Below the pieces are notes generated by a model that saw only the letters and a list, made by a program, of their open reading frames with translations, had not been told where the DNA came from and searched no databases. A stretch of 64,000 nucleotides of DNA from Acaryochloris sp. CCMEE 5410 (lineage in GTDB: Bacteria; Cyanobacteriota; Cyanobacteriia; Thermosynechococcales; Thermosynechococcaceae). The position numbers were made by a program, and so were the translations under genes. This document shows positions 37,008-49,666 of this stretch, piece after piece (within the stretch, counting starts at the first letter, position 1; every line of letters begins with the position of its first letter). Where the stretch lies: positions 124,001-188,000 of the forward strand of contig NZ_AFEJ02000005.1 in the NCBI RefSeq assembly GCF_000238775.2, in the 5' to 3' direction.

Positions 37008-38726
37008 ATGCAAACCCAAACAAATCAACCTCAGCCCACACAGCCCCCTGTGGACCTGGATCCGTTGTTGAGTTCCCCCCTGCCCTGGTTAGTGGGCATG
37101 ATCGGGTTCCTACTCATCCTGGCAACTGTCCTAGATAACAAAAATGGATATGGACGGAGTAAACGCGATGCCCGATTTGCCACCCCTGGAGAGATTCGCA
37201 AGGCCAGAAGACGAGGACTGCGGCAGATTCGAGATGCCAAAGTAGATGGATGCTCCTTAAGTCTGGGGAGTGATCGCAAGCTCATCCTCACGGACTGCCA
37301 GCCTGGGATTAGTGTGATTGGCGCGAGTGGCTATGGCAAGACCAAAAGTGTCGTCGAAAATTGTATTGACGATATCCTTCGACAAGGCTTTACAGGCATC
37401 ATCTACGACATCAAAGGAAGTTTGCAAAAGCGACATGCCGCCCTTGCCCATCGATTGGGTTATCAGCAGTATTTTTTCTGCCCCGGCAAAGCTTACACGG
37501 ATAGCCTCAATCTATTAGACTTCATCCCAGAACGAGGTGGTTCAAAGGAAGCCCTGGAACTTGCCAAGACCATCAACGCTAACTTTGAAGTACCGGGAAG
37601 TCGTAAGGACGGGTTTTTTGGTCCCCAAGGAGATAGCTTACTTAAGACCGTCTTCCTACTCGCCAAGAGCCATGTCTATCAAGATCTCGTCTCAGCCTGG
37701 GGATTCCTGAGCTTAGAAGACCTTCCCCAACGGCTACTCGCGGCTCATCAATATGGTCAATTTGACTTAGGGGGTGACCTGGACTTTTGGGCTAACCAAG
37801 CTGCACTGGGTTTAAGGTCCGTCTCCAAAGCCGAGAAAACCGCTGGAGGGATTGTGGGCACAGCGGTCACGAACTTCCAAGCGCTGATGGATGCCAGTGT
37901 CATTCCCGCGATCACCAGCTCCACGATTCCATTGGATCTCCCTGGTAAACAGATCGTATGGGTGCAGATCGATGAAAACGCTGAGAGTACGACCTCGCCC
38001 TTATGTGCTGCCGTCATTCATATGTTGATGCGGCGCAACCTGAATGCAGAAGTGAATCGGGATCGACCCCTGTTCTTGTGCTTGGATGAATTCACCTCGA
38101 TCCGCCTACCAGATATTGAGCGGTGGATTAACTTGTACCGAGAGTATGGGATGTGCTGTTTACTGTCCTATCAGAGTGATGCTCAGATTAACTTGCGGTA
38201 CACACGGGACCATGCCATGTCGATACTCAGTTCCCTTGGCACGAGAATCCACTTTCGCACGGGTCACCACTCCACCGATAAGAGTTTGAGTGATTCCCTA
38301 GGGACATTCACGGAAGTCTATAAGACCCGCTCTACGGGGCATAACAGCCGTTCAGGCAGCAGCCGCAACCGCTCCGAGCAGCATCGCAAAGTCCCACTTA
38401 TCACAGCGGACGAGATTGATACCTTTGAACCTGGAGAATGCCTGATCCAGTCTCCAGGCTGGAAGCAACGGGCACATCGGCTAAAAGTCCCGCTTAACAA
38501 AACGGATGAAGCTCTTAGAGAAGAGAATAAAACGCTTTGGCATTCTCACATCCATCCATTTCTGCTGTACTGTCGCCAATCGAGAGATCTAGGCATCACA
38601 CCAGAATATGTCGTGAGTGAACGTGCGGACATTGCAGAGTCGATGTTACCCACGGGGGCTGAGTTAGAGAAGCTTCATAAATCAGAAACTCTAATGGAAC
38701 GGAAAGCGGCGGTAGATTCTGTATAA
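37008..38726 (+). CDS. VirD4/TraD-type coupling protein
   Basis: 572 residues. One N-terminal span (LPWLVGMIGFLLILATVL) is followed by an ATPase with Walker A GASGYGKTKS (Lys111) and Walker B FLCLDEF (Asp360-Glu361). Coupling proteins bring the relaxase-DNA complex to the secretion channel. The protein is short at its N-terminus (one span, not two), as in some TraG/TraD variants. It lies just right of the insertion sequence, whose insertion may have separated it from an older promoter. Confidence 0.9.
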   Translation: MQTQTNQPQPTQPPVDLDPLLSSPLPWLVGMIGFLLILATVLDNKNGYGRSKRDARFATPGEIRKARRRGLRQIRDAKVDGCSLSLGSDRKLILTDCQPGISVIGASGYGKTKSVVENCIDDILRQGFTGIIYDIKGSLQKRHAALAHRLGYQQYFFCPGKAYTDSLNLLDFIPERGGSKEALELAKTINANFEVPGSRKDGFFGPQGDSLLKTVFLLAKSHVYQDLVSAWGFLSLEDLPQRLLAAHQYGQFDLGGDLDFWANQAALGLRSVSKAEKTAGGIVGTAVTNFQALMDASVIPAITSSTIPLDLPGKQIVWVQIDENAESTTSPLCAAVIHMLMRRNLNAEVNRDRPLFLCLDEFTSIRLPDIERWINLYREYGMCCLLSYQSDAQINLRYTRDHAMSILSSLGTRIHFRTGHHSTDKSLSDSLGTFTEVYKTRSTGHNSRSGSSRNRSEQHRKVPLITADEIDTFEPGECLIQSPGWKQRAHRLKVPLNKTDEALREENKTLWHSHIHPFLLYCRQSRDLGITPEYVVSERADIAESMLPTGAELEKLHKSETLMERKAAVDSV

Positions 38727-40969: not shown

Positions 40970-41512
40970 ATGAGCAACCTTTCCCTGCCCCAGAATTCAT
41001 CAGAAGTTCTGTTGCGCCCTGTTGCCATCCCTGAAACAGAACTAGAACGGTATATCTCGTTCAAGCATGCTCTTAATCTTCGTTTTCCAGATGAGGATAC
41101 GGGGGATTGGCATTTTCAGCCCTACTTTTTTGAACAAACGGATTCACTCAAAACTCAAAAAAGCATCCCTCTTGCAGGCAAGGAGCAGCCAGTAGATACA
41201 ACGCCTTCTCTCGGTCACCAGGGGGTACGCGATATGTCCTCAATTTTGTCTCAGGAAAGACTCCCCATTCCCTCGGATCAGCCCGTATATGTCGCCAATC
41301 ATTATCGGGCGATTGCAGACTTAGCGATGCTGGACCTCCAGAAATCCAGAGTACCGAGTATTGCGGACAATGCAGCAATTAATGGTTGGCTGGATAGCCA
41401 AGAGCAAGTTGCCCACCTCAAGCGGGACTATCTAGAACGCTTGGCAATCCAACTATCGGGTGAACCCCTCAGAATTTTTAAGCAATGGATTCAGACCGTG
41501 AAATTCATATAA
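40970..41512 (+). CDS. Hypothetical partner of nucleotidyltransferase (180 aa)
   Basis: Unrecognised soluble protein; the N-terminal third is proline-rich and loosely structured, and the C-terminal part is helical (SQEQVAHLKRDYLERLAIQL). Its end overlaps the start of the nucleotidyltransferase gene by 28 bp, the usual arrangement for an antitoxin-toxin pair. It lacks the winged helix of the classical AbiEi antitoxin, so if it is an antitoxin it is of another type. A role as protein partner is inference from coupling alone. Confidence 0.6.
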   Translation: MSNLSLPQNSSEVLLRPVAIPETELERYISFKHALNLRFPDEDTGDWHFQPYFFEQTDSLKTQKSIPLAGKEQPVDTTPSLGHQGVRDMSSILSQERLPIPSDQPVYVANHYRAIADLAMLDLQKSRVPSIADNAAINGWLDSQEQVAHLKRDYLERLAIQLSGEPLRIFKQWIQTVKFI

Positions 41513-42498
41513 ACCCTTCCCAGTCCATCCACTTGGACTTGATGAGGTCGATAGCTCAACAAGTTGGAGATACGCCTTATGTTCTCAAGGGTGGAGCGGC
41601 ACTGATCTTCACTCGTGCCCTGAATCGCTATTCTACTGATTTGGATTTTGACTCTACAAAAAAGCTAAATCTCAAGGGGCGCATTGCGGCTGCTATCAGT
41701 GAAGTGAATGGCATTGAATTGAAGTCATTAAAGCTAGTCAAAGATACGGATACTGTCCAGCGATACAAGATCCATTATCTAGATCAGGAAACGGGTAACG
41801 ATAGATTGCTCAAGGTAGAGACGAGCTTTCGTGAAAGCCCCCAACTTGAAGCCGTTGAGACAATTTCAGGTATCAAGACCTATCGACTAGAGCAGCAAGT
41901 TGATCAGAAGTTATCAGCGGCCCAACATCGGACAGCGGCACGGGATCTGTACGATCTTGATTTTCTGGTGAATCATTATGGGTCACAACTACGGGATGAC
42001 CAGATAGAGGCCATTCATCAGTTTGCCTCGGAGCCAGATCATCTGGTAGATCGATATAGTTCATCCTTTGAAACGGATGAAGTTCTGAGTCTTTTTAACA
42101 AAGGTGAAGATGTTGTTCTCTCCCTACATCTTGGCGCAGAACGACTTTTAAAAGAGCGTCAAGAAGAGATAGCCAACACGACCCAGAACAAAGTCCAAGA
42201 CAGCCAATCCCTCTACAACGAGTTTTCATCTAAAGTTGATCAGCCAGGTTTAATTGGGGCGGGCCTCGTTGCCCAGAATGCACTGAAGGCAGGGTATGCC
42301 AAGTCTGATGTTGAATCCATGTTGCTAAAGCATGATCCATCTATTCGAGGAATTGTGGCTGAGCAAGGACAGGAAAAAGGTGTGCGGGCAGCGGCGATTG
42401 TCGTTAGAGGTGCCCGGATGAAAAGCCTGACCACTGAAAGTCTAGATCTGGAGCAGGGAACGCAAGCCCCAAGCCCGGATCAAGGTCAAAGCCTGTAG
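41485..42498 (+). CDS. AbiEii/GII-like nucleotidyltransferase with C-terminal tail
   Basis: 337 residues. The nucleotidyltransferase core has VLKGGAALIF (Gly36-Gly37), STDLDFDS with metal-binding Asp52 and Asp54, KVETSF around 110 and ARDLYDLDFLV with Arg153-Asp154, matching AbiEii/MenT-type toxins that add nucleotides to tRNA. All key residues are intact. Residues 259-312 form an extra helical tail resembling that of the neighbouring 118-residue protein, which ordinary AbiEii proteins lack. Convergent with the relaxase gene (12 bp apart). It could be an addiction toxin or a substrate exported with the DNA. Confidence 0.82.
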   Translation: MDSDREIHINPSQSIHLDLMRSIAQQVGDTPYVLKGGAALIFTRALNRYSTDLDFDSTKKLNLKGRIAAAISEVNGIELKSLKLVKDTDTVQRYKIHYLDQETGNDRLLKVETSFRESPQLEAVETISGIKTYRLEQQVDQKLSAAQHRTAARDLYDLDFLVNHYGSQLRDDQIEAIHQFASEPDHLVDRYSSSFETDEVLSLFNKGEDVVLSLHLGAERLLKERQEEIANTTQNKVQDSQSLYNEFSSKVDQPGLIGAGLVAQNALKAGYAKSDVESMLLKHDPSIRGIVAEQGQEKGVRAAAIVVRGARMKSLTTESLDLEQGTQAPSPDQGQSL

Positions 42499-42510: not shown

Positions 42511-45500
42511 TCACATCTCCAGTTCATTGTCCAGATTCGCAGCTTGAGTGGGTTGAGAATTATGCTGGAGCAGGAACAATCTGCGCTCAAGGACTTTGGT
42601 GGGCCTCCCTTTTTGTAGGGCATCTTGGTATGAGTGGGTAAAGCCAATTACCCCTTGTATATAGCGTTCTTTCTCTTCAGGTGATTTCATCTGTCTGACT
42701 GCATCTGACTGCATGATGACTCTTACTCCATCCATTGCATCCCCATCACCTTGAGCGATGAGGTAGATGGCAATATCGTTTGTGTGTTGTGGGTTCTCTC
42801 GGCTCAGGTGATTCTTAATCTGGGTGTACTGCCCTCGATAGTGCATATTGATTTCCCGGTCCATCGGATAGGCATTTTTGTCTGCCCGCTCAAAGGCAAT
42901 GGGGCCATGATTAGCGATCAGGTCATCGACGCCTTTCCCTTTCTCAGAATCCCAAGGAATTCTCCATGTCTTGCAGTCTCTTTCTTCAATGAGTTCAGCC
43001 TCTCTGACCATTTCACGACGCACATTCCAGACCGTGGATTGCTCTGAATCCCAGTCATGGGCATACCTGAATTGCCGACCTGGAACAGCAAATACCTCTA
43101 GATGAGGATGCAGCACCCGTCTTTCGAGTCTTTCATCGTGCTGATTCTTGGCCCGATAGCCGATGTTGACCCCCTGCCCGCCGATGACGACCCGACCTTG
43201 AGAAACCAGAGCAGCATCTTTCTTGTCTCCTTCAGTCCGGTAGATGGGAATCTCAGGATGCTTGTAGACCGTGTACCAGAATCCTTTAGTTTTCTCTTCA
43301 TCAGTTTGGGTGACTCCATACTTGGCTAAGATCCGCTCAGCGATGTGATCGGGAACGGGTTGGAAAGCCATATCTCGCTCAAACAGTTCGCGTTTTGGCC
43401 CCATTGGGTTTTCATACTTGCGATATTTGAGTGGGGCATTGGGGTCTTTCGCTCTAGCTCTGCGAGTTTTCTTCATGTCGATACGGGGAGTATCAGGCTT
43501 GAAGGTGCCATAGAGACTCAGTGTGGGTTCCTCATTGGGTCCAAGTCCTTCAAAGGACAGCGGATCCACTCCAGCATCAGCCCACCAGCCCCCACCCTCA
43601 GCTAGCTCCTGATAGCTCAACACTTCAGGTTGCGACCGATCATTAATCAAGGCTCGGATCGGCTCAATGTGATATTGGCTGCGAACCGTCTTGAAAGACC
43701 CATCCCGTCTACGAGTGGCGATGTCCTCAATCTTGGCTCCCAGCAACCGATCAATCACCTGATCATCGGCAATGGATTGGAGTCGAGCGGCAATCACATC
43801 AGGATGGGCGCAGCTCGCTACCCATTCGTTCCAATGCTTCTCATCAATGTGGTCAGGTCGCTCTACCCCGGTATAGTCGGGTTTCCAGAACACCTGATCC
43901 TCAATGGTTTTGGGCTTAGGCGTGACGCTTATTCCCTTGTCCGTTAACTGTTGAGCAACTTCCTTGAGCTGGTCTGCGACTGGCCCATTCATGAGTGCAT
44001 CCACAGAGCGCATTGCCTTTACGGATTTAGCCAATTGCAGCATAGCTGGGAAGGTCTTCAGACTTCGCTGAGCGCGAACGGTCAGATCGTTGAGAGCGCC
44101 AATGTGCTGAGTAATGGACTCATGTGCCCTCCACTCACTGACGGTATCGGCCAGCTCCTTAATCTTGGCAAAAGAATAAGTGGGTTGCTTGGCGTTAAAG
44201 GCTTCAATCTGTTGGGTGATGGCCTGGAGCTGAGGTTGCACCTGAGCGAGGGATTGACCTTGCTGGAGTTCGCTCACCACCTCAGCTAGCTGTGCCATAC
44301 CTTCAAACTGAATTTGCTGGGGTTCAACCAGCTCGTTAATCTGAGTGGTCAGCTCAGCCAACTGCTCAATCAAGCCACTCTCAGCTAAAGCTTGTTCTTC
44401 GTTGAGGTCATGGACATCCTGAGCCAGGTCATCCATATCAGGGAATTGGGGAATGGTCAGACCCTCAACCAGCTCCTGCACTTCACCGATGGCAGCAGAG
44501 ACTTCCACCTCAGTTTGCCAGTCCTGAACAGTATCAACCAATTCAGCCATTGCGGGGAATTGGACATCCAGAGATTGGGTCGCCTCAATCCCTGCTTGGA
44601 GTCTGATGATTGCTTGGTCTAACCCTTCAGTACCCTGAGCTAGGACATCCACCATTTCAGTAACAGCATTTGCCAGCTCCTGACCCGTTCGCCATTCCGT
44701 GACAGCATCGGCAATGGCCCTAATCCTCTGCTGTCTGACCGTCTGTTCGATGGTTTGGTCAATGGTCTGGTCTATCTGCTCTATGGATTGGGAAATATAA
44801 GTGAGGTTCTGGGCGAGGGCTTGTTGTTTTTGAAGCTCCTGAACGACATTAGCTAATTCGTCCAGGCCGTTAAAAGTATCAGGCTCTAGGCTCTGACATA
44901 AGGCATCGACCCGTTGAGCGAGATTCAGCAATTGAGACCCTAGTCCACTCTCAGCTAACGCTTGCTCTTGGGTCCATGCCTTTACCAGTTTTGCTAGGTC
45001 TGAGGAGGTTGACCCCCATTCTGGTGAGTGACCGTCTTGGGTGGGGCGTGTCGGGGGAGCTGGTCCTTGATCTGCATGATCTCCTCTGCGGCCTCCAATA
45101 CCTTGTCGCTCATGGTCATCTGCAAGACGCTGGTATCCTCGATTTTCATCCTTAAGTTGTCCATTGCCTTGGCGAGTTCCTTGATCGACTCGCTCATATC
45201 CGAGGGTTTCTTGGATGCCATCGCTTCTTTGAATTCCTGGATGAACAGGTTGAGAACGGCTTTGACTTCCATTGGTATGGTGTTGATCCGCTCCCTGACC
45301 TGGGACTTGAGTTCTCTGTTCTCGTCTAGGATGTGTTGGTTCTGGGCTTGGACCTCTTCGACTTGATTGGTCAGGATGGTGATCGCGTCCGTGAGGGGAC
45401 CGAGTTGGCTTCTGATTTCGTTGATGTTCTGTTGTTGATTGTTGACGTTCTGTTGTTGATTGTTGACGTTCTGCTGTTGTTGTTCGTTGCTTTCCATAGG

Positions 45501-48096
45501 TTCCCTCGATTAGATCTAAAGCACTTTTTTGAGCATTGGATTTGGCGACCCGATTCCTGAGTTTATTCAGGCTCTCGGTATAGACAGTCAATTCATGTTC
45601 TTGCCGAGAAATATCGACGAGGAACGGCTCCCGGCTGGAGGTGCGGTCATTGGTGGTGATGACAATCGTCCGTTTCTTGTTGCCACTCTGGGAGCGGTAG
45701 GATGTCCACACCCGGTCATATTCCAAGGCAAGCGGTTGCGTCAGTGGTACATCATGGGAACGTCCCTCGTGGTCCCTGACCGTCATATTCAAGCTATCAA
45801 GGGCGGTGACCGTGAGCTGCTGACCGTTGATCCAGTTGTTCTCTTTGATAGTTGTCGTCCACCGCAACTTATCCCCAACAGCCACATCAAATTTGTGGGC
45901 ACTGTAGACCTCCTTTAGTTTGTATTTCGCGGGTTTGAATCGATAGAGCCGACCGCCAAAGGAAGATACCACCAGCTCATCTCCCTCTCGTCGTTCCACC
46001 TTGTAGAGTTCTCCTCGCTTGATGGATGCGGTTTTAGACGTTTGCAATAGCCGAACGTAATCCCCTTTTCGATACCAATCCGCCCGTCGCTTTTGTTCGA
46101 TACTCAAGTTGCGGGACTTAAGCTGAACAATCTTGCTGGATTCTCCCAGCCGTCCCGCTTGTTTCTCCCCTCTACGAATGGCTTGCTCTGTATCGAGTCG
46201 TTCCTCATTGGTGCCTGCGATAATCAGGGTTTCCTCTTGTTCTTTGAGGGGGAGAGCGAGGAACTGATCCGCTGCGGCTTGGGCCATATCAGATTTATCG
46301 CCCGACTCAATCACATATCCATTAGCATCGAGGAGTTCTAGTGCTGCAATTCCTCTGCCTCTGGCAATCAGTTCAACGGCCTGCTTTTGGACGTCAACTT
46401 TTTGCCTGACAATCTCCTCAATCCGATGAGTGGTGGCTCCATTGGCCTGCATGAACTTGAAGGGATTGCCCGCTTCAATTGAAGAGTTTTGACCTGCATC
46501 TCCCACGAAGATGACTTGTGCCCCAATGGGTTCAGCTTTCTCCAGAATCACCTTCATCTGCCGTCGGCTCATCATGCCCGCTTCATCAATCAGCCAGACT
46601 TGGTTAGGGCTGTCCTCAGCTTTATGTAGGACCAGATGTTCAACGGTGTTGGTCGTGATGCCTAGCTCATCTTGGAGCTTCTTTGCCGCTGGAATCGTGG
46701 GGCTGAACCCCCGAATATTTAATCCAGACCCATTCAGTAAAGTCTTCAGTACCCCCAAGGTTCGGGACTTGCCCACCCCTGGAAAGCCCTGCCAGATTTG
46801 ATAACGGTCAGTGCTAGTGAGGGTGTTGAGTATGGCCTTGGCCTGGTCTTTGTTCAGTTCAACCGAAATCCCAACCAGCGAAGGATGAGCGACCATTGGC
46901 TGAGCTTGGCCTTGGCCCTCCATCCAGCGCTGGTGGATCTGGGTTTCTTCTTCTACAGCAGTGACGGTGGTGAATCCACGCTCAACGGGGATCAGTTCTT
47001 TGCTTTGCTTGATGGCCTCATCCACCTGTTCCATCGCCATGCCTTGACGCTTGAGGGTTTGGAAGACATAGGCATATATGTCATCCTTCTCAAAGATTGA
47101 GGACCATTCCGCATAATGGCGAATAGCACTTTCAACTTCCATCCTGGCTCTATCTGGGTCAGGCATTACGGCCAGAGGTTCAGCCAATACCGGATGGCCC
47201 ACCCCTTGAGAGAGGGCTTCCTCACGCCAATGATCTTGGATAACTTCGAGCTTTTTACCCACACCTCGCTTAGCCTTGCGAGTAGGGAGTACCTTCTGCT
47301 TCTTGTTCTCAGGTGTGACCTCTAACCCCTCTTTCTGAACTGCTTTGACGATGGCCCGGTGACGCTTAGAAAAGACTTCGACATCAGAACGGTCGTAGCC
47401 CACTATCTCAAACGCATCTTTAGTTTCGTAGATCCGATAGCCCAGCCGTTGGACTTTCTCAGCTAGCTTTTGGCGGTAGAAGCTACCGACCCACTTAGCT
47501 TGAGCCAGCTTTTCATGGGAGAGGGACCGCCACTGCCCATCTGGCCCCTGTGTCCCATTCATGATCAGCATGTGGGTATGCAACTGCATGTCCCCATCGC
47601 GAGACGTGTGATGGGGCATCAACGCCGCAATCATATTGCCCGTATCGACGACGGAGCGGACCCCATTCACTTGAATTCGGGTCTGGGCATACTCGCGCTC
47701 AAGTAACTCAAAGGTTTCGAGGACTGCCTCCATGTGGGCATCAAAGATCCGGTTATCCCCCTCCAAGTGCAGGGCCATCGATACACTTTTGGGAGCAGAC
47801 AGCACCAGGTCATGAGCAAGGCGTTCATCGTCTTCTTCGTTAGGTCTTTTGCCCCGAATTCGTTGAGCGGTTCCAGGAATGACTCCTCTGCTGAGAGATT
47901 TCAAGTCTTCGCGTTTGGCGTAGTGACCTAGTTTCTGGACTACATCATTCGAGCCGACCCACACTGTTGTCGTCATGCGGTCGATGTCAGCGATGGACTC
48001 GGATTCACCGTAGTAACGTTCCACTTCGTCTACGAGAGATTCATCTTCCTCGTAGTACTCAATCAAGTCCCGCGTTATGGTCCGCATCGTCTTCAT
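42511..48096 (-). CDS. MobF-type relaxase-helicase with C-terminal DUF3854/TOPRIM-like domain
   Basis: 1861 residues. Relaxase: paired tyrosines near the N-terminus (Tyr14-Tyr15, Tyr28-Tyr29), DLVLSAPKSVSM, and the metal triad His163...His173-x-His175 (QLHTHMLIMN). RecD-like helicase: Walker A GFPGVGKS (Lys443), Walker B LIDEAG (Asp504-Glu505). Residues about 865-1035 are Arg/Gln/His/Pro-rich and overlap a nested gene. A helical region (1035-1470) has repeating LA..V..W...QALA units. A C-terminal domain (about 1490-1750) with YRTEGDKKDAALVSQG (Glu1622), DWDSE (Asp1681, Asp1683) and GKGVDDLI matches DUF3854, a TOPRIM-like family often linked to primases. It would nick at oriT, unwind, and perhaps prime DNA in the recipient. 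Confidence 0.92.
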   Translation of the reverse strand: MKTMRTITRDLIEYYEEDESLVDEVERYYGESESIADIDRMTTTVWVGSNDVVQKLGHYAKREDLKSLSRGVIPGTAQRIRGKRPNEEDDERLAHDLVLSAPKSVSMALHLEGDNRIFDAHMEAVLETFELLEREYAQTRIQVNGVRSVVDTGNMIAALMPHHTSRDGDMQLHTHMLIMNGTQGPDGQWRSLSHEKLAQAKWVGSFYRQKLAEKVQRLGYRIYETKDAFEIVGYDRSDVEVFSKRHRAIVKAVQKEGLEVTPENKKQKVLPTRKAKRGVGKKLEVIQDHWREEALSQGVGHPVLAEPLAVMPDPDRARMEVESAIRHYAEWSSIFEKDDIYAYVFQTLKRQGMAMEQVDEAIKQSKELIPVERGFTTVTAVEEETQIHQRWMEGQGQAQPMVAHPSLVGISVELNKDQAKAILNTLTSTDRYQIWQGFPGVGKSRTLGVLKTLLNGSGLNIRGFSPTIPAAKKLQDELGITTNTVEHLVLHKAEDSPNQVWLIDEAGMMSRRQMKVILEKAEPIGAQVIFVGDAGQNSSIEAGNPFKFMQANGATTHRIEEIVRQKVDVQKQAVELIARGRGIAALELLDANGYVIESGDKSDMAQAAADQFLALPLKEQEETLIIAGTNEERLDTEQAIRRGEKQAGRLGESSKIVQLKSRNLSIEQKRRADWYRKGDYVRLLQTSKTASIKRGELYKVERREGDELVVSSFGGRLYRFKPAKYKLKEVYSAHKFDVAVGDKLRWTTTIKENNWINGQQLTVTALDSLNMTVRDHEGRSHDVPLTQPLALEYDRVWTSYRSQSGNKKRTIVITTNDRTSSREPFLVDISRQEHELTVYTESLNKLRNRVAKSNAQKSALDLIEGTYGKQRTTTAERQQSTTERQQSTTEHQRNQKPTRSPHGRDHHPDQSSRRGPSPEPTHPRREQRTQVPGQGADQHHTNGSQSRSQPVHPGIQRSDGIQETLGYERVDQGTRQGNGQLKDENRGYQRLADDHERQGIGGRRGDHADQGPAPPTRPTQDGHSPEWGSTSSDLAKLVKAWTQEQALAESGLGSQLLNLAQRVDALCQSLEPDTFNGLDELANVVQELQKQQALAQNLTYISQSIEQIDQTIDQTIEQTVRQQRIRAIADAVTEWRTGQELANAVTEMVDVLAQGTEGLDQAIIRLQAGIEATQSLDVQFPAMAELVDTVQDWQTEVEVSAAIGEVQELVEGLTIPQFPDMDDLAQDVHDLNEEQALAESGLIEQLAELTTQINELVEPQQIQFEGMAQLAEVVSELQQGQSLAQVQPQLQAITQQIEAFNAKQPTYSFAKIKELADTVSEWRAHESITQHIGALNDLTVRAQRSLKTFPAMLQLAKSVKAMRSVDALMNGPVADQLKEVAQQLTDKGISVTPKPKTIEDQVFWKPDYTGVERPDHIDEKHWNEWVASCAHPDVIAARLQSIADDQVIDRLLGAKIEDIATRRRDGSFKTVRSQYHIEPIRALINDRSQPEVLSYQELAEGGGWWADAGVDPLSFEGLGPNEEPTLSLYGTFKPDTPRIDMKKTRRARAKDPNAPLKYRKYENPMGPKRELFERDMAFQPVPDHIAERILAKYGVTQTDEEKTKGFWYTVYKHPEIPIYRTEGDKKDAALVSQGRVVIGGQGVNIGYRAKNQHDERLERRVLHPHLEVFAVPGRQFRYAHDWDSEQSTVWNVRREMVREAELIEERDCKTWRIPWDSEKGKGVDDLIANHGPIAFERADKNAYPMDREINMHYRGQYTQIKNHLSRENPQHTNDIAIYLIAQGDGDAMDGVRVIMQSDAVRQMKSPEEKERYIQGVIGFTHSYQDALQKGRPTKVLERRLFLLQHNSQPTQAANLDNELEM
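44994..45497 (-). CDS. Nested coiled-coil protein (167 aa) in +1 frame of the relaxase
   Basis: ATG at 45497 with GAGG 6 nt upstream. After an Asn/Gln repeat (three units of QNVNNQQ, coded by 21-bp tandem repeats at about 45430-45478) comes a long heptad coiled coil (LTNQVEEVQAQNQHILDENREL; ESIKELAKAMDNLRMKIED) and a Pro/Gln tail. The host relaxase frame over these bases reads as repetitive ERQQSTT and then Arg/His/Pro-rich linker, so the +1 frame looks like the selected one. The 504-bp frame has no stop. Probably a separate protein translated from the same mRNA; function unknown. Confidence 0.65.
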   Translation of the reverse strand: MESNEQQQQNVNNQQQNVNNQQQNINEIRSQLGPLTDAITILTNQVEEVQAQNQHILDENRELKSQVRERINTIPMEVKAVLNLFIQEFKEAMASKKPSDMSESIKELAKAMDNLRMKIEDTSVLQMTMSDKVLEAAEEIMQIKDQLPRHAPPKTVTHQNGGQPPQT

Positions 48097-48236
48097 GACA
48101 TCGACCTTTGATTCAGCGGCCTAAACGTTTCAGGAAAGTTTTAAGCATGGGAATACCTGCTGTGAAATTTTTAAAAAGCGATTCCATCGACCACGAATGT
48201 GATCATCAGCGTGAAAACTACAAAGATGTGACGGTG

Positions 48237-48311
48237 TACTACAGAGTGAAGTTACAAAACAACTACGGAAGTACTACGTGATAGTACAAAAATGTTTCTG
48301 AATGTACTACG
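48237..48311. repeat. GTACTAC repeats, candidate oriT/operator
   Basis: GTACTAC at 48237, 48272 and 48305, spaced 35 and 33 bp. The middle copy forms an inverted repeat GTACTA-CGTGA-TAGTAC (48272-48288). They lie 140-215 bp upstream of the relaxase start, where oriT or a relaxase operator is expected. Confidence 0.5.
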
Positions 48312-48461
48312 AAAATTTAGGGTCAGTCCGATTGGGTAAATTTCCGTTCCGGTGCCTCGGAGTGGTGATGGGTGTGGGAGCCTCAGCGACCCCTCCAGAA
48401 CCTCTTGAATCTGCCCTCAAAGTAGCACCATCTCTAGGATCCTTGCAAATACTGCGTTTTC

Positions 48462-48491
48462 GGTGGTAACCCGGTGGTAATCAAGTGGTAA
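48462..48491 (+). repeat. 11-bp direct repeats upstream of parM, candidate parC centromere
   Basis: GGTGGTAA at 48462 and 48473 and AGTGGTAA at 48484, exactly 11 bp apart, about 60 bp before the ParM-like start. ParMRC systems such as R1 use 11-bp direct repeats upstream of parM as centromere and operator. Followed at 48505 by GGCGGGGGTACATTACC, related to the dispersed repeats. The rest of 48097-48461 shows no gene. Confidence 0.6.
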
Positions 48492-48547
48492 AAACCGCAA
48501 TTTTGGCGGGGGTACATTACCTTGTCCAAACCGATAGGTTTTTCAAC

Positions 48548-49666
48548 ATGACTACAAAAATATTTTTGACGGTCGATGTCGGTGCAAGTTTGACCAAAGC
48601 CTTCTTGCAAATTGCACCGGATGGCAAGCTTCCGATTGAGGAATGTATTACACAACCGTCTGCTGTCCTCAGAACAACCGAGAGTCTGTACGAGGAGTCG
48701 GACCACGACAACTCCGCTCACAGTTCTCTCCTTGGCTATGGAGGGATGTACTGGCAGACGGGCCAGATTGCTGAAACCAATCTCAGGCAGACCAACACAG
48801 ACCAGCACAAGCACCCTGAAGCGATTGCCAAGGTGCTGTCGATTGCGGGGTATGCCATCTCCAAGGCTGGGAATGGTTGCGAGATGTATTTGGACTTGCT
48901 CTTGCCTCAGAGTGAGGAGCCAAGCTTTGCCCAGATGAAGCGAGATTTGGCGAAGTACGTCAGCAAGTTTTTGTACGGGCCGAAGCAACTGACCTGTGCG
49001 CCGAGGTTTGTGAATGTCTTGCCAGAGAGTGCGGGAATCGTCTCGTATGCCAAGGTCTACCCCTCGATTATTCTGATGTTTGGTCACAAGGACTTCACTT
49101 TGACGAAGGTCAAGGATGAGCATAGTGGCTTGGGCTATATCCAGACCTGGGCTGGACGAGGCTCATTGATGATTCAGCACCATATGAACTGGACACCATC
49201 GAATGAGCTGACGGGTGCCAAGCTGATTTTTTCCCAGGGGGTTGGTCAGAAAGGACTTGAGAAGACATTGGGTGAGAAAGCTGGCCCCATCGTGGCTTCC
49301 TTACGCCAAGCGAGGGATCTGTACTGGGTGAATCTCCAGCATCAATTGAGTAGTGACATTGATGTGGTGCAAGCCAAGCGCATCTATGTTGCAGGCGGGG
49401 GCGCGCCCGCCTGGTCTAAGCAGCTCAAGGAATTCTTTAGTGGCAAGATGGATTCCCTTGGCCCTGTGATTCGCACCATTGGTCAGGAATTCCCAGAATG
49501 GTCAAAGTCTCCGATGACCTACCGCCTGACGGATGCGTATCTGGTATGGCGTCAGAGTGCGGATCGTCCTGAAACGTTGCAAGCTCCCCCCACTCGTAAA
49601 AATTCCAAGACAACCAAGATTACTAAGTCAGCCAAGAGTGCAAAGGTGGAGGTGAGCAATGTCTAG
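48548..49666 (+). CDS. ParM/StbA-like plasmid-segregation actin
   Basis: 372 residues from the ATG at 48548; homology starts immediately (FLTVDVGASLTKAF, phosphate-1 loop, Asp10), and an in-frame GTG at 48485 lies in the iterons. Further actin-fold signs are the second phosphate loop region (FGHKDFTLTKV) and the adenosine motif YVAGGGAPAW. The C-terminus is a Lys/Thr/Ser-rich basic tail, possibly disordered. Such proteins polymerise with ATP to push plasmid copies apart. Upstream 11-bp iterons and an overlapping downstream gene complete a ParMRC-like arrangement. Confidence 0.85.
   Translation: MTTKIFLTVDVGASLTKAFLQIAPDGKLPIEECITQPSAVLRTTESLYEESDHDNSAHSSLLGYGGMYWQTGQIAETNLRQTNTDQHKHPEAIAKVLSIAGYAISKAGNGCEMYLDLLLPQSEEPSFAQMKRDLAKYVSKFLYGPKQLTCAPRFVNVLPESAGIVSYAKVYPSIILMFGHKDFTLTKVKDEHSGLGYIQTWAGRGSLMIQHHMNWTPSNELTGAKLIFSQGVGQKGLEKTLGEKAGPIVASLRQARDLYWVNLQHQLSSDIDVVQAKRIYVAGGGAPAWSKQLKEFFSGKMDSLGPVIRTIGQEFPEWSKSPMTYRLTDAYLVWRQSADRPETLQAPPTRKNSKTTKITKSAKSAKVEVSNV

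Follow-up and report, generated by a model that had tools for sequence, protein, structure and literature searches.

The gene at 42511-48096 of the window (the whole 64,000-nucleotide stretch of DNA analyzed here, part of a 316-kb contig in an 8.1-Mb assembly) probably encodes a conjugative relaxase and gives rise to at least 2 proteins. One would be a long chain in which a MobF relaxase and a helicase are joined to a primase-core-like end, and the other a coiled-coil-like mobilization accessory encoded in a different reading frame inside the same gene. The long chain had been recognized in the original prediction, which missed the second reading frame under selection at 45497-44994.

Domain layout and neighborhood of the relaxase gene

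The gene is an uninterrupted frame of 1861 codons with an ATG start (Table 1). The original prediction described its product as a MobF relaxase-helicase fused to DUF3854 in a single 1861-residue chain and proposed an HMM search for TrwC and DUF3854 in one protein; both were found in one protein, together with AAA_30, and all 3 score well above their Pfam cut-offs. The NCBIfam MobF model NF041492 also matches the protein (2.8e-71), and a Pfam match to TraI_hel_assoc_N supports a RecD-like helicase after the relaxase. The predicted relaxase residues are likewise present in an alignment with TrwC of R388, where Tyr14/15, Tyr28/29, and His162/173/175 are kept; we take these to be the catalytic positions of the relaxase. 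The protein has the HUH relaxase domain with 3 His, the N-terminal Tyr pairs, and the RecD-like helicase of the MobF family. A MOBQ identity was rejected, since the relaxase domain matches TrwC/MobF. TraA-type NCBIfam models match the protein as well, and their best stretches (aa 313 onward) correspond to the helicase part. The NCBIfam CyRepA1 model NF042913, with which CyRepA1 of pSYSA scores 595.8 bits, gave no match in the window protein at E values up to 1. Between the nested ORF and the C-terminal module (43837-44991), the host frame contains what appear by eye to be degenerate helical repeats of about 55-60 residues (FPxMxELAxxV...QALA).

Table 1. Features of the relaxase gene and its surroundings in the window.
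Feature	Coordinates	Strand	Basis or remark
Whole gene, from MobF relaxase and helicase through a partly dual-coding linker to the primase-like module	42511..48096	-	1861 aa
TrwC-type relaxase domain, aa 11-294	47215..48066	-	Pfam TrwC 3.3e-63
RecD-like helicase core, aa 413-598	46303..46860	-	Pfam AAA_30 4e-51
DUF3854 (TOPRIM part), aa 1606-1732	42901..43281	-	Pfam 1.5e-41; E1622, D1681, D1683, KGVDD 1721-1725
Primase-core-like module, aa 1421-1811, conserved part about 1451-1742	42664..43836	-	Modelled
Nested ORF, +1 frame, 167 aa, ATG, over host aa 867-1034	44994..45497	-	Conservation, selection, model
GAGG, Shine-Dalgarno-like, 7-10 nt before nested ATG	45504..45507	-	Sequence
Type IV coupling protein (T4SS-DNA_transf / TraG-D_C)	37008..38726	+	Same window

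Besides a type IV coupling protein, the window contains a large ORF with a sub-threshold match to HerA/DUF87 (22.9 bits; cut-off 23.2). The relaxase gene is adjoined by a gene for an AbiEii-type nucleotidyltransferase, a toxin family (41485-42498), and pMB01 also has an AbiEii-type gene near its relaxase gene, with one gene between. A divergent gene at 48485-49666 occupies the place where ParM/StbA stands next to related relaxases (L023 and L024); it had no Pfam match at E values up to 0.01. A screen of 48050-48560 for an oriT returned 2 short inverted repeats only.

A primase-core-like module at the C-terminus

The original prediction assigned a TOPRIM-like domain to the C-terminus. A TOPRIM fold is indeed predicted there, but the conserved module is wider than TOPRIM alone, spanning about aa 1451-1742 across 44 relaxase-type and 29 stand-alone rows, and stand-alone DUF3854 proteins possess the same conserved module, including the part before TOPRIM. 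An AlphaFold2 model of aa 1421-1811, made with a 37-sequence alignment, reached a pLDDT of 84.5 and a pTM of 0.84, and this predicted structure supports the TOPRIM fold, so that the absence of the fold, which would have refuted the original prediction, was not observed. E1622 lies at the end of one strand and D1681 after another (model residues 202 and 261), and it is at such strand-end places that the catalytic Glu/Asp of the TOPRIM fold are expected.

Structural comparisons support a predicted fold that goes beyond TOPRIM and resembles the primase core of DnaG and T7-type enzymes. Foldseek against the PDB placed DnaG at ranks 1 to 4, with 1 match under 0.001 and TM values of 0.3-0.4, and many of the top named matches among viral models were DnaG/Twinkle-type primases. 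The first 23 rows from VIA-align were all DnaG, T7 gp4, T4 primosome, or Twinkle (Z 9.8-12.4; 172-253 residues aligned), the best of them with Z 12.4 over 241 residues at an rmsd of 5.5. Non-primase TOPRIMs ranked lower (RecR, Z 8.3 over 127 residues; RNase M5, Z 8.0 over 105), and other TOPRIM enzymes are disfavored as the identity of the C-terminus by this match to primase cores. Identity to the DnaG and T7 gp4 cores in structural alignments is about 10-12%. Local profile-profile alignment with DnaG covered 80 columns at 95.7% (P 9e-9), against 0.2% and 0.1% for 2 unrelated control alignments, and in global mode the value was only 59.7%; the DnaG profile comprised 26 sequences of the phylum, after 3 of 29 loci whose longest frame had no zinc motif were dropped.

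The 3 residues highlighted in the original prediction, Glu1622, Asp1681, and Asp1683, exist in the window protein. E1622 is invariant in the 81 aligned rows, D1681 is found in 76 of them (4 gaps, 1 Gly), and position 1683 is Glu in 59, Asp in 18, a gap in 3, and Pro in 1; the KG-DD motif is kept in 75-76 rows. D1681 pairs with the FDxD motif of DnaG, and KG-DD with GKD-D, in the local profile-profile alignment. E1622 falls on the EG motif of DnaG, but in a low-confidence extension of the alignment, and K1626, also in a low-confidence stretch, takes the position of the Asp in the EGYFD motif of the host's DnaG.

Other searches with the module returned little. PHROGs gave no named family for it, and for the relative L055 one weak "DNA polymerase" match (E 0.15). 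A PDB profile search gave a weak DnaG match (E 0.13) that we do not count as evidence, as well as ZASP/PDZ matches (E 3e-4) to 49 profile positions of an unrelated protein that we take as chance.

On the modelled fold, the C-terminal end is likely a primase. The original description of this end as primase-like is borne out by the match to DnaG/T7-type cores, but Pfam detected no zinc-binding domain in this chain at E values up to 10, and the DxD motif is DxE in most relatives. These same 2 features would also fit a structural relic, comparable to Twinkle, that binds single-stranded DNA or the nested protein and has ceased to make primers, as would the Lys in place of the DnaG Asp after the EG motif (in the low-confidence alignment) and the presence of Twinkle among the structural matches; Twinkle is primase-less in animals. 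We consider such a relic unlikely, given the conservation of E1622, D1681, and KG-DD over the 81 rows and the purifying selection on the stretch 3' of the nested ORF (43/23/117 substitutions at host codon positions 1/2/3 between the window and L019).

In 60 of the 81 rows, a set of H, C, C, H, and C is kept together at the places of window aa 1498, 1506, 1531, 1563, and 1609 (43270-43605). None of these residues occurs in the window or its nearest rows (LATNT or LVTNT instead), and the missing set may represent a metal site lost in this group. Six DUF3854 modules gave short HMM matches (L061, L092, L095, L097, L103, and L104), and all of these except L095 are without D1681 in the alignment, possibly from an insertion or a broken gene.

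An internal start from which a separate primase could be made, preceded by an SD-like motif at one place, was not common to all 8 Acaryochloris-type genes; a GTG after AGGAT or GAGGAT and before VFW is shared by 3 of them (the window gene, L015, and L019).

Distribution and history of the fusion

The MobF-DUF3854 fusion is not unique to the window but recurs in Acaryochloris, Nostoc, and other cyanobacteria. TrwC, AAA_30, and DUF3854 occur together in 5 of 5 fused relatives scanned. A plasmid collection gave at least 5000 matching records; the 40 listed were all cyanobacterial and mostly annotated as MobF, and 3 of them cover at least 80% of the query. A scan of species genomes with C-terminal alignment confirmed at least 275 candidates, of which 80 loci were kept. 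Relaxase, helicase, and DUF3854 are found in one ORF in 37 of these best 80 loci, which are cyanobacterial. A further 6 combine the helicase with DUF3854, and in the remaining 37 the ORF with DUF3854 has neither of the other domains; 8 of these 37 ORFs begin at the edge of the extracted stretch. Of 195 genomes sampled evenly across the class, 34 had TrwC and 96 had DUF3854, and by our reading of the rows the two domains share an ORF in at least 5 of the 34. DUF3854 is absent from 8 of 8 other cyanobacterial MobF proteins, 2 of which are also without AAA_30. The nearest named relatives are Acaryochloris, in searches that may omit records closest to the window's genome. We found no description of a MobF-DUF3854 fusion, or of a gene nested in MobF, in the open-access literature, preprints excluded.

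Phylogenetic analysis of 95 DUF3854 modules, in a midpoint-rooted tree with several long branches and some "stand-alone" rows that are split or cut hosts, placed 5 CyRepA1 rows together with 1 stand-alone row, outside all relaxase-type rows. Since stand-alone Nostocales forms are interspersed among the relaxase-linked rows of this tree, the history of the module may have involved either several fusions or later loss of the relaxase.

The window's genome has 4 long DUF3854 ORFs. Two of these have a full relaxase domain, the one on contig C7 has the relaxase end only, and the copy on C10 is cut at the contig end. The genome additionally contains a 665-aa MobF protein without DUF3854 and a broken copy of a relaxase-DUF3854 gene.

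All 6 DUF3854 matches in the window's genome are in relaxase-type ORFs or their remnants, and no CyRepA-type gene turned up in that search. This could be explained if the relaxase doubled as a plasmid replication initiator whose DUF3854 end serves vegetative replication more than transfer. DUF3854 is the common domain of CyRepA1 and CyRepA2, which 2 reports describe as supporting plasmid replication, with DUF3854 termed Toprim-related (PMC10079941, PMC9978351). We nevertheless give a replication initiator a low probability, since 3 of the 4 small plasmids that we read have other replication candidates: a DUF3987 protein on one, dnaB and a DEAD-box helicase on another, and on the third a second DUF3854 protein that scores over the CyRepA1 cut-off. 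The fourth belongs to type rep_cluster_1642, and its record ends with an unlisted ORF of 567 aa. The window protein itself does not match the CyRepA1 model.

A probable second gene nested in the relaxase gene

The nested ORF begins with an ATG preceded by a Shine-Dalgarno-like motif (Table 1), in a part of the gene where the host frame reads by eye as R/Q/G-rich low-complexity sequence. Its predicted protein is coiled-coil-like and was modelled as long helices (pLDDT 75.5, pTM 0.41). An ORF with its ATG at the same place is present in 8 of 9 Acaryochloris-type genes, including the divergent pREC2 gene L021, although 3 of these 8 hosts are incomplete (L014 is without the relaxase front, L015 is cut at a contig end, and L026 is in 2 frames). 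The ninth, L022, is without a nested ORF.

An HMM of the 8 nested ORFs gave 45 matches at E values up to 0.01, of which 42 lie in an assigned host, 34 of these 42 being beyond the seeds. All 42 host-assigned matches are in frame +1, in Nostoc, Gloeocapsa, Aphanocapsa, Chlorogloea, and others. After iteration of the HMM, 53 of 53 host-overlapping matches were in frame +1, and 2 more fell in a broken copy, L017; members such as L016, L164, L166, L205, L206, L208, L209, and L211, which are MobF hosts outside the reach of the first HMM, joined only on iteration and match by construction. Among the 7889 ORFs searched, none of the nested family was found outside hosts or L017. L017 itself, in the first 8 kb of contig C4 of the window's genome, is a decayed relaxase copy with stops in the host frame and a nested ORF split over 2 frames.

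An SD-like 4-mer is found 4-14 nt before the first ATG in 43 of the 53 nested ORFs, against an expectation of about 15% by our own arithmetic with even base use; many of these rows are close relatives. The place of the nested ORF in the gene varies: Acaryochloris-type genes, L028, and L029 have it 5' of the primase-like end, and Nostoc-type genes at or beyond the end of the module. L063, L208, and L209 have 2 nested ORFs each. It was not detected in 21 of the 50 ORFs with all 3 domains, L022 included, so the nested ORF is not essential to this type of gene. No Pfam family was listed over its cut-off for 7 nested proteins (best 25 matches for 3 of the 7), most of the matches being coiled-coil noise. 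A search of R388 trwC found no nested ORF (best E 2.8).

Two nested proteins matched 3 and 16 records of the plasmid collection. The annotated feature under the match was mobF in 14 of the 19, a DUF3854 fragment in 2, an AAA ATPase in 1, nothing in 1, and a "hypothetical protein" in 1, whose CDS lies in another frame than the match. The nested ORF was thus listed as a gene in none of the 19 records of this collection, the gene table of which is incomplete.

Selection on the overlapping frames

Comparison of the window with L019 gave 49/25/160 substitutions at host codon positions 1/2/3 upstream of the nested ORF, 34/15/9 inside it, and the 43/23/117 given above downstream. The same reversal was seen in 10 pairs compared by DNA-level alignment, some of which share a gene: host third positions are the most changed upstream in 10 of 10 pairs and the least changed inside in 10 of 10 (with one tie), and downstream they are again the most changed in all pairs but L063/L068, L208/L209, and L046/L053 (7 of 10). 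In codon alignments, the nested third position is the most changed in 27 of 28 Acaryochloris-type pairs (all but L021/L026). Counts summed over 3 pairs without shared genes are 79/47/138 at nested-frame positions 1/2/3, and over 10 further pairs 380/244/521; these summed counts come from alignments on the nested protein, which slightly favors the nested frame. By these codon-position patterns, conservation in the overlap is stronger for the nested frame than for the host frame. The signal is weaker in MobF proteins without DUF3854, since it is clear in 2 of 4 pairs (53/44/66 and 19/16/39), marginal in 1 (87/68/89), and absent from L205/L211 (66/50/58).

The host frame was evaluated by random recoding. 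When the nested protein was kept, none of 2000 recodings preserved an open host frame for 21 of 22 genes, and 1 of 2000 did so for L206. This indicates that selection maintains the open host frame as well and speaks for a long chain made through the nested stretch. Taken with the codon-position counts, this shows at the level of sequence that both frames are kept by selection. When the host protein was kept instead, frame +1 stayed open in 0-985 of 2000 recodings, and in the window its openness by itself would be weak evidence for a nested gene. It is very improbable that the +1 ORF is a codon-bias artefact or part of a frameshift product with no gene of its own: 380 of 2000 synonymous recodings do retain an open +1 frame of this length in the window, but the codon-position pattern is reversed inside the ORF in all 10 pairs, the nested protein is conserved into divergent hosts, an ATG and an SD-like motif are present, and the combination of a stop codon in the nested frame and a host frame under selection to stay open fits 2 products better than one frameshifted chain.

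Proposed roles of the two products

Nicking, unwinding, and piloting are known MobF biology. The domains and active-site residues of the 1861-aa chain are present and the fold of its end is predicted, and we expect from its family that the chain would nick and pilot the plasmid strand through its MobF relaxase and unwind it with its RecD-like helicase. The DnaG-type core at its end would most likely prime synthesis on the plasmid single strand. We infer this activity from the fold and residues; it could act on the complementary strand in the recipient, as the original prediction had it, on the displaced strand in the donor, or on both. The coiled-coil-like protein would be translated from its own ATG in frame +1 and, judging from its position, its helical nature, and the parallel with RSF1010, may be a MobB-like mobilization accessory that works on the relaxase itself or influences how it is delivered to the coupling protein.

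How such a gene arose is a more tentative matter. A conceivable course, to which we give somewhat less than even weight, is that an ORF for relaxase and helicase grew through a mobB-like coiled-coil gene that was already there, now in frame +1, and so became fused to a CyRepA-type primase. Cyanobacterial MobF plasmids would then have reached the RSF1010 design independently, with a self-contained transfer enzyme for all 4 steps from nicking to priming and an overlapping gene for its delivery that is unannotated in the records considered here.

If these roles are correct, a single protein would nick, unwind, pilot, and prime, a point relevant to the conversion of the transferred strand to double-stranded DNA in the recipient. 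The nested frame suggests that a conserved second product has been overlooked in annotating a widespread relaxase family and that the linker of a fusion can be an overprinted gene.

Comparison with known systems

The window protein shares a MobF relaxase with RecD-like helicase with TrwC of R388 and TraI of F, which to our knowledge are without DUF3854, and trwC differs further in having no match to the nested family. With CyRepA1 and CyRepA2 it shares the DUF3854 module, but these proteins are described as combining DUF3854 with a DEXD helicase; they have no relaxase, carry DUF3854 at the front, and use another helicase. Like DnaG and T7 gp4, the predicted model spans an RNA-polymerase-type core with TOPRIM, in which DxD and KG-DD align; the window module differs in that no zinc-binding domain was detected, DxE is common, and the module is fused to a relaxase.

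Accessory genes nested in a relaxase gene are also found in ColE1, where mbeB and mbeD lie within mbeA; the MbeA relaxase belongs to MOBP and is without a helicase or primase. RSF1010 is a MOBQ system, and its RepB' is a different primase type. In RSF1010, mobA/repB has a C-terminal primase domain and mobB lies in another frame inside the gene (PMC2200642). The window gene resembles it in having a relaxase and a primase-like end in one gene with a putative accessory gene nested in another frame, and differs in that its relaxase is a MobF with a RecD-like helicase and that no conserved internal start for a separate, RepB'-like primase was found among the 8 Acaryochloris-type genes. The likeness of the nested genes is an analogy and does not imply homology of the window's nested protein to MobB. 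A relaxase, a primase-like end, and a nested gene would together amount to the layout of RSF1010 mobA/repB-mobB in another relaxase family.
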